From assembly GCF_000271485.2 (NCBI RefSeq), contig NZ_AKVN02000001.1:686001-750000 (forward strand): 64,000 nt of DNA, in the 5' to 3' direction. Each line of letters opens with the position of its first letter. The first letter of the stretch is position 1. The DNA is from Pelosinus fermentans DSM 17108. Its GTDB lineage: Bacteria > Bacillota > Negativicutes > DSM-13327. The position numbers and the translations under genes were made by a program. Positions 33,725 through 38,819 of the stretch are shown here, in pieces. Below the pieces are notes generated by a model. That model saw nothing but the letters and a program-made list of their open reading frames with translations, did not search any database and was not told where the DNA came from.

Positions 33725-34408
33725 TTGAGACACCGTAAATTATGCAGTATGGCAACTTTGGGATTCATGACAGTTTCCTTGATTACGACATCCTTTGGCA
33801 GCATTTTTGCTACTCCTGCTTTTGCAGCTGAACCGGAAACTGCTGCTGTGATTAAGGAAGAGAAGAGTAAGAATAATAAAGACTTGTGGGGAGGACTTTT
33901 AGCCGTTGGCGTAATTGCATTAATTGCGGGAAATCATGGCGGAAGTCATGATAATGACTCAGCCAGCAAAAATAGCAATTCGACTTCTGGAAATACTTCC
34001 ACGACTACTCCTTCCAGTCAGAATGTCACAGCAGATCAAAAGCTGGCTGTTGAGTTACTAAATGCTGACCGAGCTAAAAATGGCTTGAGTGCTTTGAAAA
34101 CGAATTCGCAGCTAACAAGTCTTGCTGGAGATTATGCGCAAGATATGATTGATCGTAATTTCTTCGCCCATAATAATCCTGAGGGTCAGACACCTTTTGA
34201 TAGAATGAAGAATGCTGGCATTAGCTATACCTATGCAGGCGAAAACTTAGCTATCAATAGTAATGTGACTGCAGCAGAAACTGCTTTTATGAACAGTTCT
34301 GGACACAGGGCAAACATTCTTAATCAGAATTACACAGATGTTGGCGTTGGTGTTCGTTATAATAACAATGGATCAGCTTATGTGGTACAAGAGTTTATTG
34401 CTAAATAA
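33725..34408 (+). CDS. Secreted CAP/SCP-domain protein (YkwD-like)
   Basis: A 227-aa exported protein. Signal peptide at 1-36: basic start, hydrophobic core, cleavage expected after AFA in TPAFAAEP. A second short hydrophobic stretch (GLLAVGVIALIAG, about 57-69) is followed by a Ser/Thr/Asn-rich linker. The CAP domain spans about 105-227 with LLNADRAKNGL, AHNNPEGQTPFDRM, YAGENLA, and SGHRANILN. Bacillus YkwD-type proteins are related; their activity is unresolved. TTG start after GAGAGG. Confidence 0.87.
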   Translation: MRHRKLCSMATLGFMTVSLITTSFGSIFATPAFAAEPETAAVIKEEKSKNNKDLWGGLLAVGVIALIAGNHGGSHDNDSASKNSNSTSGNTSTTTPSSQNVTADQKLAVELLNADRAKNGLSALKTNSQLTSLAGDYAQDMIDRNFFAHNNPEGQTPFDRMKNAGISYTYAGENLAINSNVTAAETAFMNSSGHRANILNQNYTDVGVGVRYNNNGSAYVVQEFIAK

Positions 34409-34451: not shown

Positions 34452-34503
34452 ACTTATATGATACACTATTTTTTAATTACAAGTATAGAGAATATAAAAA
34501 ATA

Positions 34504-34642
34504 CTGAACCGCGAAGGTCACGAAGAAATGCAAAGAACGCGAAGTCATATTATATATTTTTAAAGTATATTAAGCTGTTACCAGCGAGCATGACGAAGCA
34601 ATCCTTTGCACCTTTGTATCCTTCGCGTCTTCGCGTTTCAAA
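34504..34642. repeat. Long intergenic palindromic repeat, GCGAAG type
   Basis: Left arm GAACCGCGAAGGTCACGAAG, right arm CTTCGCGTCTTCGCGTTTC, with an unusually long centre of about 70 bases. The innermost right part (CCTTTGCACCTTTGTATC) resembles the ACAAAG type, so the copy is mixed. Confidence 0.8.
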
Positions 34643-34690
34643 CCGTTTTACTGTTTTAATTTGTCCTATTGTGTATGGACCGCTTAAAAA

Positions 34691-35005
34691 CTAGATCGAA
34701 ACGCCGCATTTTGGACACATGCCGCGATGTCTGTGATAATCAAATTCATGACCACAGCAAGGACATAATTTATAGAGTCGATATTGGCATACTCGATACA
34801 GTTTGTAATATGTTTTATAGGTTTTCACACATTCTTTTTCCGTTTTACATTTCATTTTATCCATATCAGAGCACATGGTAGAATAGCAATCATGCTCAGG
34901 TTTTTTTTTCATACAAGGCTTTTCACAGTCATCCTGATCATCATCGTCATCCATTTTGCAATAATGAGGTTTGGGTTTATAACAATCATATTTAGGATAA
35001 TTCAT
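34691..35005 (-). CDS. Cysteine-rich protein with a C-terminal zinc ribbon
   Basis: A 104-aa protein with 14 cysteines. An acidic run DDDDDQDD (19-26) follows a Tyr/Lys/Pro-rich N-terminus. C81PCC84G and C97PKC100G near the end form a zinc-ribbon-like pair with His residues between them. AAAGGAGG lies directly upstream, so it is probably translated. No family recognised. It is divergent from two SPOCS-domain genes; together they look like a spore-coat or metal-binding locus (inference). Confidence 0.65.
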   Translation of the reverse strand: MNYPKYDCYKPKPHYCKMDDDDDQDDCEKPCMKKKPEHDCYSTMCSDMDKMKCKTEKECVKTYKTYYKLYRVCQYRLYKLCPCCGHEFDYHRHRGMCPKCGVSI

Positions 35006-35210
35006 TGAACTAAATCCTCCTTTTATTTAAAAATTTGACATTGGGTTGCTATATTCTATGCACACCAAGGTAAAAGTGTTATGTTGCAATTTCAAAATAG
35101 TAAATTATTGATGGGGGTAAAACAAGGAATATCTTTTGCAAAACACTTTTTTGCACATAAAATATCCCACTGGCATATATATAAATAGAACATAAAAGGG
35201 GGGGATATGT

Positions 35211-35900
35211 GTGGATGAGAAAGATACACGCTTAGCTGGTTATAACCAATGTACATTGGGTACTGAGACTGGTCCACAGACCATTATCGTTCGACAGGTA
35301 ATCGGTGCGGCTGAAGAGCAAAAGGTATTGGATATTCATGTAGTCGTACCAGATAGAAAACCAGCTATTGAGCAAATTGTAGATGTTTTTGTCAAAGATG
35401 TATGTATCGATTGTGTTGATGTTATTCATAATAAGGTAATTGTACGCGGGGAATTTGAAATTAAAGCGATCTATGTAGCATATTTGCCTGACCAGCCAGT
35501 GCATGCTGTTGAAATTAAACATTTTAAATGGACTCAGGATATTGAAATACCTGGCGCACGCAGAGGTATGGATGCAGATGCAAATGTTATTGTAGAATTT
35601 GTTGATTATGATGTAGATTGTCACAGCCGTGCTTACAAGTACAAATATGGTGATAATGATTGTGACGGTAGTTGCAATGACCACCACCATCACAATGATG
35701 ATTGTGATGATGATTGTGACGATGATTGCGATAATCATCATGATGATTGCGATGACAATGGCCACCACCATCACCATCACAGATGGACTCGTCACTTTGA
35801 TGTATCCGTAGTGCTTAAGATTGTGGCTAAAGTTATGGCGGATCGTCAAGTGCAAATTGGCGGCACAAGCGGTACGATGCCAACTCAACCAAAAGGATGA
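35211..35900 (+). CDS. SPOCS (DUF3794) protein with an Asp/Cys/His-rich insertion
   Basis: A 229-aa protein with a DUF3794/SPOCS domain at about 22-140 (TIIVRQVIGAAEEQKVLD, KVIVRGEFEIKAIYVA, DQPVHAVEIKHFKWTQDIEIPGA). SPOCS domains occur in spore envelope assembly proteins such as SipL. Residues 145-190 are an insertion containing six Cys, twelve His and many Asp, ending in six consecutive His. After it the domain resumes (FDVSVVLKIVAKVMA). The adjacent paralogue lacks this insert. GTG start after GGGGGGG. Metal binding is inferred from composition. Confidence 0.8.
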   Translation: MDEKDTRLAGYNQCTLGTETGPQTIIVRQVIGAAEEQKVLDIHVVVPDRKPAIEQIVDVFVKDVCIDCVDVIHNKVIVRGEFEIKAIYVAYLPDQPVHAVEIKHFKWTQDIEIPGARRGMDADANVIVEFVDYDVDCHSRAYKYKYGDNDCDGSCNDHHHHNDDCDDDCDDDCDNHHDDCDDNGHHHHHHRWTRHFDVSVVLKIVAKVMADRQVQIGGTSGTMPTQPKG

Positions 35901-35938: not shown

Positions 35939-36886
35939 ATGAGTGATGATACAAGGCAAGATTCTGATGAAACTATTGAAAGAGCAATTAATGATGAAAT
36001 GATTTGCGGATGTCCAGAACCGGGTCCGGAAACTATTTCCGTAGAACAGGTTCTAGGGGCAGAAATGAAACAGAAGGTTGTCGAATTTGATATGTTTGTA
36101 CCGGATCCTAAGCCTGATATTGAACAAGTTATTGATGTATATGTAAAAGACGTCGACATCGATAGTGTAGATGTTATTATGAACAAAGTAATTATTCGGG
36201 GAGATCTGGAAGTCAAAGTCATGTATGTAGCCGATTTGCCAAACCAGCCTGTTCATGCATTTGAGAGACGTCATGTACGCTTTACCCGAGATATCGAAAT
36301 TGAGGGTGCTGAACCTGGCATGGATGCTAGTGCTGATGTTGTCGTTGAATATGTGGATTATGATTTTCATTGCCATCATGACAGGCGCAAAGTGCATATC
36401 ACCATTGTTCTTAAATTCTGGGCACGTGTTCTTACTACTACGGAAATGGACGTATATGGATTAACACCTATACCTGGTGCTGGACCAGTGGAATATACCA
36501 GCGCAAATGCACAAAATGGCACATATTCTTCTGGCATGCTCGGAGATGATGATTATGTTTCTGCATCCCAGACAGGCGGTGGAGATATAGAGGGCACCGG
36601 TATTGACAATGTGATTGTCACAGGACCTGGAATTACGCAGACGGCTGGAACAATGATGGGCATTAGCGGAACGGCTACGATCACGGGAAATTCTGTTAAT
36701 ATCCGAACCGGCCCAGGTACAAATTTCCCTGTAGTAACCAAGGTCAATACAGGGGAACGAGTAACGATAAAAGAACAGGCTTTTGGTTGGTATAAAATAG
36801 TTCTTTCCGGTGGTACGACTGGATGGGTTGCTAGCTGGTTAGTTAATACTGGCACTGGTACTGTACCGACAGCCCCTAAAGGGTAA
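35939..36886 (+). CDS. SPOCS (DUF3794) protein with a C-terminal SH3b domain
   Basis: A 315-aa paralogue of the preceding gene. The SPOCS domain (about 25-165) is strongly similar: TISVEQVLGAEMKQKVVE, KVIIRGDLEVKVMYVADLPNQPVHAFERRHVRFTRDIEIEGAEPGMDA, separated here by type, and FHCHHDRRK where the other has its long insert. A Gly/Thr/Ser-rich linker (about 175-240) leads to a bacterial SH3 domain (about 240-303) with NSVNIRTGPGTNFPVV and GWVASWLV, which usually binds cell-wall peptides. No signal peptide. The protein may connect a spore coat layer with cortex or wall (inference). Both genes end in PxxPKG. Confidence 0.82.
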   Translation: MSDDTRQDSDETIERAINDEMICGCPEPGPETISVEQVLGAEMKQKVVEFDMFVPDPKPDIEQVIDVYVKDVDIDSVDVIMNKVIIRGDLEVKVMYVADLPNQPVHAFERRHVRFTRDIEIEGAEPGMDASADVVVEYVDYDFHCHHDRRKVHITIVLKFWARVLTTTEMDVYGLTPIPGAGPVEYTSANAQNGTYSSGMLGDDDYVSASQTGGGDIEGTGIDNVIVTGPGITQTAGTMMGISGTATITGNSVNIRTGPGTNFPVVTKVNTGERVTIKEQAFGWYKIVLSGGTTGWVASWLVNTGTGTVPTAPKG

Positions 36887-36947: not shown

Positions 36948-36971
36948 CTAAATAGAGAATTTTCAAGGAGA

Positions 36972-37065
36972 ACGTTAAACGCAGAGGGCACAGAGTTCGC
37001 AGAGAGCACAGAGATTTTAACCTTATCTATTTTTTTCTCAGTGTTCTCTGCGCCTCTGCGGTTCG
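36972..37065. repeat. Intergenic palindromic repeat, ACAGAG type
   Basis: Left arm GTTAAACGCAGAGGGCACAGAG contains an internal duplication (CGCAGAGAGCACAGAG); right arm TCTCTGCGCCTCTGCGGTTC. It fills much of the 314-base gap from 36887 to 37200; nothing else beyond the terminator is seen there. Confidence 0.85.
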
Positions 37066-37200
37066 GTTTACTTTCTATGTTTTAAAGGACGCGGAGCATT
37101 TTTCTTATGAAATAATTTTTAGGGTAGGAGCATATAGTGTATCATGTGCTTTTGAAAATGGATTGATCTGTCATATTTTTAAAATTAAGGGGGGAAAATA

Positions 37201-37992
37201 GTGCTTACTGCTGTTGAATATCTTGGCTCAGTGGGAGTGGGAGTAACAGTACCCCGTGTATTTCGTGCGGATGATGGTAATATTTATGTTGTTAAATTAC
37301 AAAGTAATCCCATGGGTACGAAAGTATTGGTGAATGAATATATAGCATGCTGGTTTGGTGAACGAATGGAGCTGTGTTTCCCTCCAAGTGATCTCATTCA
37401 GATCGAGGAGCAGGTCTTAAAAAAAAATAAATCGCTGCGAGCTACTGGTTTACGCGCTAAGATTCATTTTGCCAGTCAATATATACCAAGTAATAAATAT
37501 GTTGTAAGGACAAATCTATCTAAGGCAAGTAATAAGAGCGCGATGGCAGGAGTGATGTTGTTTGATCATATGTTTCATAATATTGATCGAACAAAGAACC
37601 GTAAAAATCTGTTAGTACGTTTACAAGATTCTGCTTATGTGCTATACGCTATCGATAATTCCCATTTGTTTGTACGTGGACGATGGAATATTAAAACGTT
37701 AGAAAAATTGGCAGAAAAAATTGTTGTAAACCGGCGTAGAGCATATGGCTGGCTGTTGACTTATTTTTTTACTTCTGGAGATTTTAGCCCTTATGCTGCT
37801 AGAGTTAGGGAGATTAAAAAGGAAGATTTAGTCCAGCTAGTAGAATCGATCCCCCAGGAATGGCTGCCTAAAATTGAGGAACGAGATGCACTTTTCAATT
37901 ATATGCTTAGAAGATGTCAGATGGTGGATCAGATTGTTTTACGGTTATGCCAGTCAATTCCGGATGTAAACAGGCGTACCCACTTTTACTAA
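37201..37992 (+). CDS. HipA-like kinase-fold protein
   Basis: A 263-aa protein resembling the HipA_2 family: NIYVVKLQSNPMGTKVLVNEYIACWFGERM near residue 24 looks like the nucleotide-binding Lys region, and MLFDHMFHNIDRTKNRKNLLV with YAIDNSHLF near 118-155 like the catalytic HxxNxxR/N and Mg-binding Asp. It is shorter than toxin HipA (about 440 aa), and there is no HipB antitoxin gene next to it, so a toxin role is not supported. GTG start after GGGGGG. Its 3' end overlaps the convergent transpeptidase gene by 39 bases. Confidence 0.72.
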   Translation: MLTAVEYLGSVGVGVTVPRVFRADDGNIYVVKLQSNPMGTKVLVNEYIACWFGERMELCFPPSDLIQIEEQVLKKNKSLRATGLRAKIHFASQYIPSNKYVVRTNLSKASNKSAMAGVMLFDHMFHNIDRTKNRKNLLVRLQDSAYVLYAIDNSHLFVRGRWNIKTLEKLAEKIVVNRRRAYGWLLTYFFTSGDFSPYAARVREIKKEDLVQLVESIPQEWLPKIEERDALFNYMLRRCQMVDQIVLRLCQSIPDVNRRTHFY

Positions 37993-38589
37993 AGGGTAGA
38001 TTTGCTCTACATTTTGATTATGCATGCGAATACAGCCATTTGAGACCATGGTGCCAATCAGCCAGGGACGATTTGTTCCATGAATTCCATACGAATCATA
38101 ATTGAGACCTAACCAGCGAGTTCCTAAGACGCCTCCAGGATTCATGACTTTGAGTGCAATTGCATAGTTTCCCAGTGGCGTGGGGGTTGTTAGTTTACCA
38201 ATACCTACCGGATATTGATGTATTGGTGTATTGCCATTAAATAGTGTTAGTTGACGAGATGAGGTTGTAATTAGAATATTAGCCCTTGGCAAAGAGAAAT
38301 CCGCTCTTTTGGCGGCTGGTGATAGGGGAGTAATGGTCGTGGTAGTTGCCTGATGCAAACGGCAATAGGTGAGAGGATCTACGATGCCAGTTGCGGGTAA
38401 GTTTTCTTTTTCTTGAAATAAAGTAATTCCACGAATGGTCTGGGTATCGTATTTCTGATGAATCGGTCCCTGGTATAGATTCTTATGGAGCAACAATTGT
38501 TGTATTTCCCCAATGAGGGGATGTTCACTTTCTTCTTCAAAGGCAATGGATGCTAACCTGTGAGACAAATAGAGTGTACGAACATTCAC
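37954..38589 (-). CDS. L,D-transpeptidase (YkuD) with peptidoglycan-binding domain
   Basis: A 211-aa enzyme making 3-3 crosslinks or attaching proteins to peptidoglycan. A PG_binding_1-like helical domain is at about 20-75 (EIQQLLLHKNLYQGPIHQKY, GITLFQEKENLPATG). The YkuD domain is at about 95-211 with YGIHGTNRPWLIG and the catalytic SNGCIRM. No signal peptide or membrane segment is seen, unusual for a wall enzyme unless it acts in the sporulating cell. Start GTG 38589 follows GCAGGAGG; a TTG 18 bases upstream is less likely. Confidence 0.85.
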   Translation of the reverse strand: MNVRTLYLSHRLASIAFEEESEHPLIGEIQQLLLHKNLYQGPIHQKYDTQTIRGITLFQEKENLPATGIVDPLTYCRLHQATTTTITPLSPAAKRADFSLPRANILITTSSRQLTLFNGNTPIHQYPVGIGKLTTPTPLGNYAIALKVMNPGGVLGTRWLGLNYDSYGIHGTNRPWLIGTMVSNGCIRMHNQNVEQIYPLVKVGTPVYIRN

Positions 38590-38819
38590 AACATACACCT
38601 CCTGCAAGATCTTTAGTTATTATATGTAAGTAGAGTTTGGCTGGTGCCATGCATCTTTAACCAAGGACTTGCAGGAATAAAGAGGGGTACATGCAAAATA
38701 AAGAAATTGGACAAAATAATTGTATAAAATATTACTGGTATTTGCAGGCAAACACCGCTATAATATCGAATATAATAATAAATTTGATCTTTTGATGAAT
38801 TATGGAGGTGCATTGCCAT

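Follow-up and report, generated by a model that had tools for sequence, protein, structure and literature searches.

The SPOCS locus and its gene neighbourhood

The window analysed here, a stretch of 64,000 nucleotides from Pelosinus fermentans DSM 17108, encodes on its forward strand a protein of 229 amino acids with a GTG start (SPOCSi; positions 35211–35900), in which a SPOCS domain is combined with an insert rich in Asp, Cys and His. A run of G at 35198–35204 on the same strand is, from direct reading of the sequence, the likely ribosome-binding site. Residues 53–135 match PF12673 (SipL, SPOCS), the sole Pfam domain of the protein, at 46.2 bits against a curated cut-off of 23.6, confirming the family membership proposed in an initial annotation of this DNA. 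The following gene, SPOCS-SH3 (35939–36886, forward strand), encodes a paralogue of 315 amino acids with a short loop at the site of the insert and a C-terminal SH3_3 domain recognised by Pfam. Gene neighbourhoods were compared for 40 of the 53 genomes that carry an orthologue (13 were left out, five of them congeners), and SPOCSi adjoins SPOCS-SH3 in all 40; the two genes are probably co-transcribed.

Further conserved neighbours are a CAP/YkwD-family protein upstream (33725–34408, forward strand; family match), a HipA-like kinase downstream (PF20613; 37201–37992, forward strand) and a protein that by eye is L,D-transpeptidase-like (LDT; open reading frame at 37954–38607, reverse strand). In 36 of the 40 neighbourhoods the kinase gene accompanies the SPOCS pair; that the kinase acts on coat proteins would be a guess. 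Two stretches with sequence of the 'cgaaggtcacgaagaaatgc'/'cacagagttcgcagagagcacagag' type, at about 34490–34650 and 36965–37080, look like dispersed intergenic repeats.

A small divergent gene at 34691–35005 (reverse strand) encodes a protein of 104 amino acids that is rich in Asp, Cys and Tyr and ends in a zinc-ribbon-like CxxC...CxxC arrangement. It occurs in 30 of the 40 neighbourhoods, and contig ends account for some absences among these neighbours. Its N-terminus is variable and rich in Asp, Cys, His and Tyr, while C81, C84, C97 and C100 are invariant in 18 rows of the 30 found, forming two CxxC knuckles as in a zinc ribbon. A Pfam search of this protein returned no match, and its structural model has a mean pLDDT of 50, with about 76 over the last 24 residues.

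Additional SPOCS paralogues were observed away from this locus. Pelosinus has a second adjacent SPOCS pair (G000:C1:3127397-3128464; L003, L155) that bears Cys and His and, by eye, is without a long Asp-rich insert. A third paralogue found elsewhere in many genomes (L099–L115, 17 genomes) mostly has a longer loop of Asp, Cys and His, often accompanied by Lys or Trp, and in one case (L113) DDCDDDWDGHWKHKHHH is repeated four times in tandem.

Composition and predicted structure of the insert

The composition given in the initial annotation for residues 145–190 (six Cys, twelve His and dense Asp) holds on recounting: this segment contains 17 Asp, 12 His, 6 Cys and 5 Asn, so that 35 of its 46 residues are Asp, Cys or His. 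When the 97 stop-to-stop frames in the window that reach 100 codons or more are ranked by their densest 46-residue segment, second place goes to the small divergent neighbour, with 19 such residues, and the third has 15. From the FVDYD motif to the last strand, 39 of 61 residues are Asp, Glu, His or Cys, giving a net charge of -13 from composition alone. Part of the insert is encoded by a tandem array with a period of 12 (35695–35747, forward strand).

The Cys residues of the window insert are spaced as CxxxC (DCDDDCDDDC). Metallothioneins, in comparison, have clustered Cys of the CxC/CxxC type, and the spacing seen here counts against a metallothionein-like metal binder. ZnuA possesses a His/Asp-rich metal loop whose composition is similar to that of the insert; it belongs to an unrelated protein family and no relationship is claimed, and the NCBIfam ZnuA model touches SPOCSi residues 159–214 with an E-value of 0.93, which is at chance level.

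AlphaFold2 was applied to eight sequences, comprising the window SPOCSi, five orthologues and two paralogues. The SPOCSi model (mean pLDDT 69, pTM 0.57) has six strands, at residues 23–45, 53–72, 75–90, 97–112, 121–134 and 195–216, mostly with a pLDDT of about 77–95. Residues 137–190 (35619–35780, forward strand) lie between these confident strands with pLDDT below 50, and about 30–36 over most of their length, and the insert is therefore predicted to be a disordered loop joining strands 5 and 6 of a six-stranded beta domain. The Pfam match stops at residue 135 and the insert thus starts just beyond the Pfam boundary; its placement inside the SPOCS domain, as originally described, is correct structurally, between strands 5 and 6, and incorrect by the Pfam definition. 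A sequence search for a solved SPOCS structure gave nothing convincing (best E-value 0.065, the chains being low-complexity or unrelated), and a Foldseek search with the SPOCSi model gave nothing at an E-value of 0.001 or better (best 0.2). When the predicted SPOCS domain was compared by VIA-align, small heat-shock (alpha-crystallin) proteins filled the first 40 rows, with a top Z of 5.3 and all below Z 8.

Distribution of SPOCSi and association with sporulation

Orthologues of SPOCSi were detected in 53 of 380 Negativicutes genomes (profile search, E-value of 1e-10 or better), and the protein sequence was read in all 53, that of G290 being partial. Named relatives are Pelosinus fermentans, P. 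propionicus, Propionispora and an uncultured Pelosinus. SpoIVA scored above its cut-off in 51 of the 380. Both genes are present in 49 genomes and neither in 325, a co-occurrence from which it follows that the gene tracks sporulation; the exceptions are four genomes with the orthologue and no SpoIVA match (G004, G084, G090, G291) and two with the reverse (G002, G094). As expected of a spore-envelope protein, SPOCSi is thus largely confined to endospore formers, 49 of the 53 orthologue genomes having SpoIVA.

The insert was taken to run from the FVDYD motif up to the FDVS strand, which includes about 11 conserved residues on the left, and could be read in 52 of the 53 genomes, the copy in G290 being cut by a contig end. 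It is present in all 52, with lengths of 26–155 residues (at least 35 in 51). Asp, Cys and His together make up a median of 60% of the insert and at least 45% in 41 of the 52; every insert has at least two Cys, and 45 have at least five His. The remaining 11 fall below 45%, are richer in Glu, Pro, Ala or Ser and still contain at least two Cys, and three of the 52 (G295, G314, G291) fall below 20%, the place of these residues being taken by Glu, Pro or Ala. The family therefore does not depend on a specific metal site. The suggestion that the insertion is recent is not supported, as all orthologues that could be read, throughout the spore-forming Negativicutes, have it; a recent or lineage-specific origin is ruled out for an insert that is class-wide. 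Conversely, the short loop ascribed to the neighbouring paralogue was found as described. It reads FHCHHDRRK in the window SPOCS-SH3 and has 8–14 residues in the 36 genomes parsed out of 53; two others were off-pattern, nine were outside the set, and six had been sorted with the other protein of the pair, their loops being short by eye where intact. We found no description of the SPOCSi insert in the open-access literature covered by our search.

The repeat units that build the insert vary between lineages, being of the DCDD type in Pelosinus, the DDCDTDDSHCGHHHH type in Propionispora and the HDHDHD type in genus g81. The state of having at least 40% Asp plus His (40 of 52 inserts) switches at least six times on a tree built without the insert. 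Within these 40 inserts, the mean position of His is C-terminal of Asp and Cys in 32, and 36 have at least five His within the 11 residues that precede the RxFDVS motif. The small divergent gene lies nearby in 27 of 28 neighbourhoods whose insert has at least 40% Asp plus His and in 3 of 12 others (Fisher p = 7e-6, at a threshold chosen after the data were seen). Among the absences, the neighbourhood of G293 is cut by a contig end and that of G095 reaches no more than about 1.3 kb upstream. In G294 a copy sits at another place, and in G089, G289, G290 and G291 the matches at other places are partial and weaker. The tree offers only three supported independent pairs for this association, and a link between the zinc-ribbon-like gene and Asp/His-rich inserts is put forward here only as a suggestion.

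A conserved, putative mother-cell promoter

A sigma-K-like promoter, consisting of CACA, 16 bases and CATATATA, precedes SPOCSi in the window (35154–35181, forward strand), where 0.05 occurrences of the pattern CACA-N15-17-CATATATA are expected by chance. The same pattern was found upstream of 35 of 40 SPOCSi orthologues and before none of 40 SPOCS-SH3, 36 HipA-like, 34 LDT, 30 small divergent, 32 CAP, 24 CheW and 21 IspE genes. Both strands of the neighbourhoods, 573 kb in all, contain 38 strict elements, one in each of 38 of the 40 neighbourhoods; the three outside the 35 (L130, L135, L148) are at or inside over-long automatic start calls for SPOCSi, that of L135 lying 235 bases inside the called frame. 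Over the whole genome the pattern occurs twice and a backwards control four times, so the motif alone is unspecific and its weight derives from conservation at one place. The second genomic copy, inside an EF-G-like ORF (named by eye) and on the opposite strand, is probably due to chance.

Promoters of C. difficile, as given in PMC3789822, have AC at -35 when read by sigma-K, with CATATAAT as the -10 element of sigK P2, and ATA at -35 when read by sigma-E. In the elements upstream of SPOCSi, CACA is followed by TA (CACATA) in 25 of 35; ATA is less constant than AC, and sigma-K therefore fits better than sigma-E. Either reading of the sequence would be mother-cell specific. A looser sigma-K-like element (AACA, 16 bases, CATAGAATA) precedes the small divergent gene at 35052–35080 on the reverse strand, and the looser pattern stands before this gene in 18 of 30 cases and before the LDT gene in 9 of 34. 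The sigma-K-like element, present upstream of SPOCSi in 35 of 40 cases, gives the gene, by pattern, a mother-cell sigma promoter, and this feature together with the tracking of SpoIVA supports the spore-envelope role first attributed to the protein.

Selection on a turning-over sequence

In 770 pairs of orthologues whose N-terminal domains are 70–79% identical, aligned insert residues match at 51% on average and at 33% when counted over the longer insert. The composition cosine between the inserts of these pairs is 0.76 over all 770, compared with 0.40 when an insert is set against the N-terminal domain of the same protein; it reaches 0.93 in the 436 pairs in which both inserts are Asp/His-rich, partly by construction because the inserts were so chosen. 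The 12-base tandem array of the window copy shows that repeat turnover is real in the insert, yet the types of residue are kept among close relatives.

Further evidence comes from substitution patterns. Across 28 close pairs the pN/pS of the insert is 0.02–0.22, with a median of 0.10. Because aligning the codon pairs by their protein sequence depresses pN/pS, a shuffled-codon control was made; it gave a median of 0.30 (range 0.25–0.46), and the observed value is lower in all 28 pairs. These values indicate purifying selection on the insert beyond the control. The conserved N-terminal domain has a pN/pS of 0.00–0.29 over the same pairs, and the insert is therefore not more constrained than the domain. 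With the low ratios, the composition cosines and the Asp/Cys/His content of the 52 inserts, the composition of the loop looks selected.

Relationship to SipL and other coat proteins

The closest characterised relative by domain is SipL of C. difficile (CD3567), in which three DUF3794 (SPOCS) domains are followed at the C-terminus by a LysM domain that binds SpoIVA (PMC6436350). SPOCSi shares the PF12673 domain and, in the Negativicutes, is confined to spore formers; it differs in having a single SPOCS domain and no LysM domain within its 229 amino acids, and in its loop, with 29 Asp plus His per 46 residues as opposed to 16 or fewer in the SipL-type frames read. The SPOCS domain takes its name from SpoVID, CotE and SipL (PMC10867305), and SPOCSi shares this named domain with SpoVID and CotE of the Bacilli. 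Moorella is also reported, in PMC8745062, to be without a SipL equivalent.

Of the Negativicutes genomes with SpoIVA, the orthologue or both, 55 in all, 53 have PF12673, the longest frame being 438 amino acids among the matches listed, and no SPOCS frame of SipL length was seen among those matches. When an N-terminal-domain profile was searched against a phylum sample of 398 genomes from the larger group, the frames outside the class had 428–622 amino acids, with one of 227, among the matches listed. A long frame was obtained from 21 of 29 loci; at least three of the 21 (L166, L170, L175) look like the wrong frame, and 14 of the 21 end in LysM-like sequence by eye. One SipL-like frame of 544 amino acids (L174) ends in SH3-like sequence in place of LysM, making it a possible bridge from the SipL type to SPOCS-SH3.

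Inferred function of the insert

From what was computed here, namely the family assignment, a loop predicted to be disordered, the distribution of orthologues, the conserved promoter and a kept composition under purifying selection, we infer, at a probability of about one half, that SPOCSi is a late mother-cell component of the coat or exosporium whose loop binds metal and/or cross-links. In the proposed mechanism, the SPOCS beta domain would build into the spore coat, probably together with its co-transcribed SPOCS-SH3 partner, and the long disordered loop between the last two strands would project as a polyanionic brush rich in thiol and imidazole groups. This brush could then bind divalent metal ions and/or cross-link molecules through disulfide and metal bridges. 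In the exosporium of C. difficile, the Cys-rich proteins CdeC and CdeM resemble SPOCSi in idea, as outer-layer proteins that could cross-link; they are not known to be rich in Asp and His or to have a SPOCS domain.

The metal loading originally envisaged for this insert is plausible from its composition, and the main competing account dispenses with metal altogether, treating the loop as a structural spacer, solvated and polyanionic, or as an arm for disulfide cross-linking, in which Cys and acidic charge matter and His and Asp are one filling among others. That at least two Cys occur in all 52 inserts, that 51 of them have at least 35 residues and that eleven exchange Asp and His for more Glu, Pro, Ala or Ser is in keeping with such an arm; the His tract that adjoins the final strand in 36 of the 40 inserts rich in Asp and His argues against it, given that neither charge nor disulfides need His. 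We regard this account as possible, if doubtful, and favour the metal-binding or cross-linking coat/exosporium component over it. A loop that merely tolerates filling by triplet-repeat slippage, with no selected function, appears very improbable. It draws on the 12-base tandem array of the window copy and on repeat units and lengths that differ among relatives, but slippage would not explain an insert that is present in 52 of 52 orthologues read and short in the 36 paralogues parsed, a median pN/pS a third of that of the control, or the recurrence of similar composition in inserts built from other repeats, for instance those of the DDCDTDDSHCGHHHH type in Propionispora. The codons over the 52 inserts (GAT 510, GAC 340, TGT 127, TGC 181, CAT 356, CAC 301) are mixed for Asp, Cys and His, unlike the product of fresh slippage, and pure slippage is disfavoured on this evidence. 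The initial annotation had held that an insert highly variable or absent in close relatives would point to slippage: lengths and units do vary, and the array is there, but the insert is never absent in 52 orthologues and is under purifying selection.

The SPOCS pair could alternatively be the Negativicutes stand-in for SipL, a morphogenetic pair of the base layer that recruits to SpoIVA and in which the loop is secondary. The lack of SPOCS frames above 438 amino acids among the matches listed for 53 SPOCS genomes fits this proposal, as do the 428–622 amino acid frames outside the class (save one of 227, among the matches listed), the LysM-like ends of 14 of 21 long frames and the SH3-like end of one of them, L174. 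Base-layer proteins of the coat are expected early, however, and the promoter is sigma-K-like, that is, late; each protein also has one SPOCS domain rather than three. On balance we consider a base-layer role unlikely. A broader evolutionary scenario, in which diderm spore formers replaced the SipL coat platform by a two-gene SPOCS module with a metal-binding loop brush, the zinc-ribbon-like protein is its metal-dependent partner, and chemistry is selected while repeat turnover rewrites the sequence, is offered as speculation only and is more likely wrong than right.

On the sequence evidence, the insert is a class-wide loop under selection in a conserved spore-linked protein, belonging to a class-wide, promoter-tagged gene cluster, and its composition is largely kept where its sequence is not. 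Pelosinus is a genus with metal-transforming isolates, among them a strain from a chromium-contaminated site (PMC4582584) and a metal-reducing strain that came from a US Department of Energy field site, where the soil sampled was uncontaminated (PMC6107796). Should the loop bind metal, SPOCSi would provide Pelosinus with a natural metal sorbent at the spore surface.
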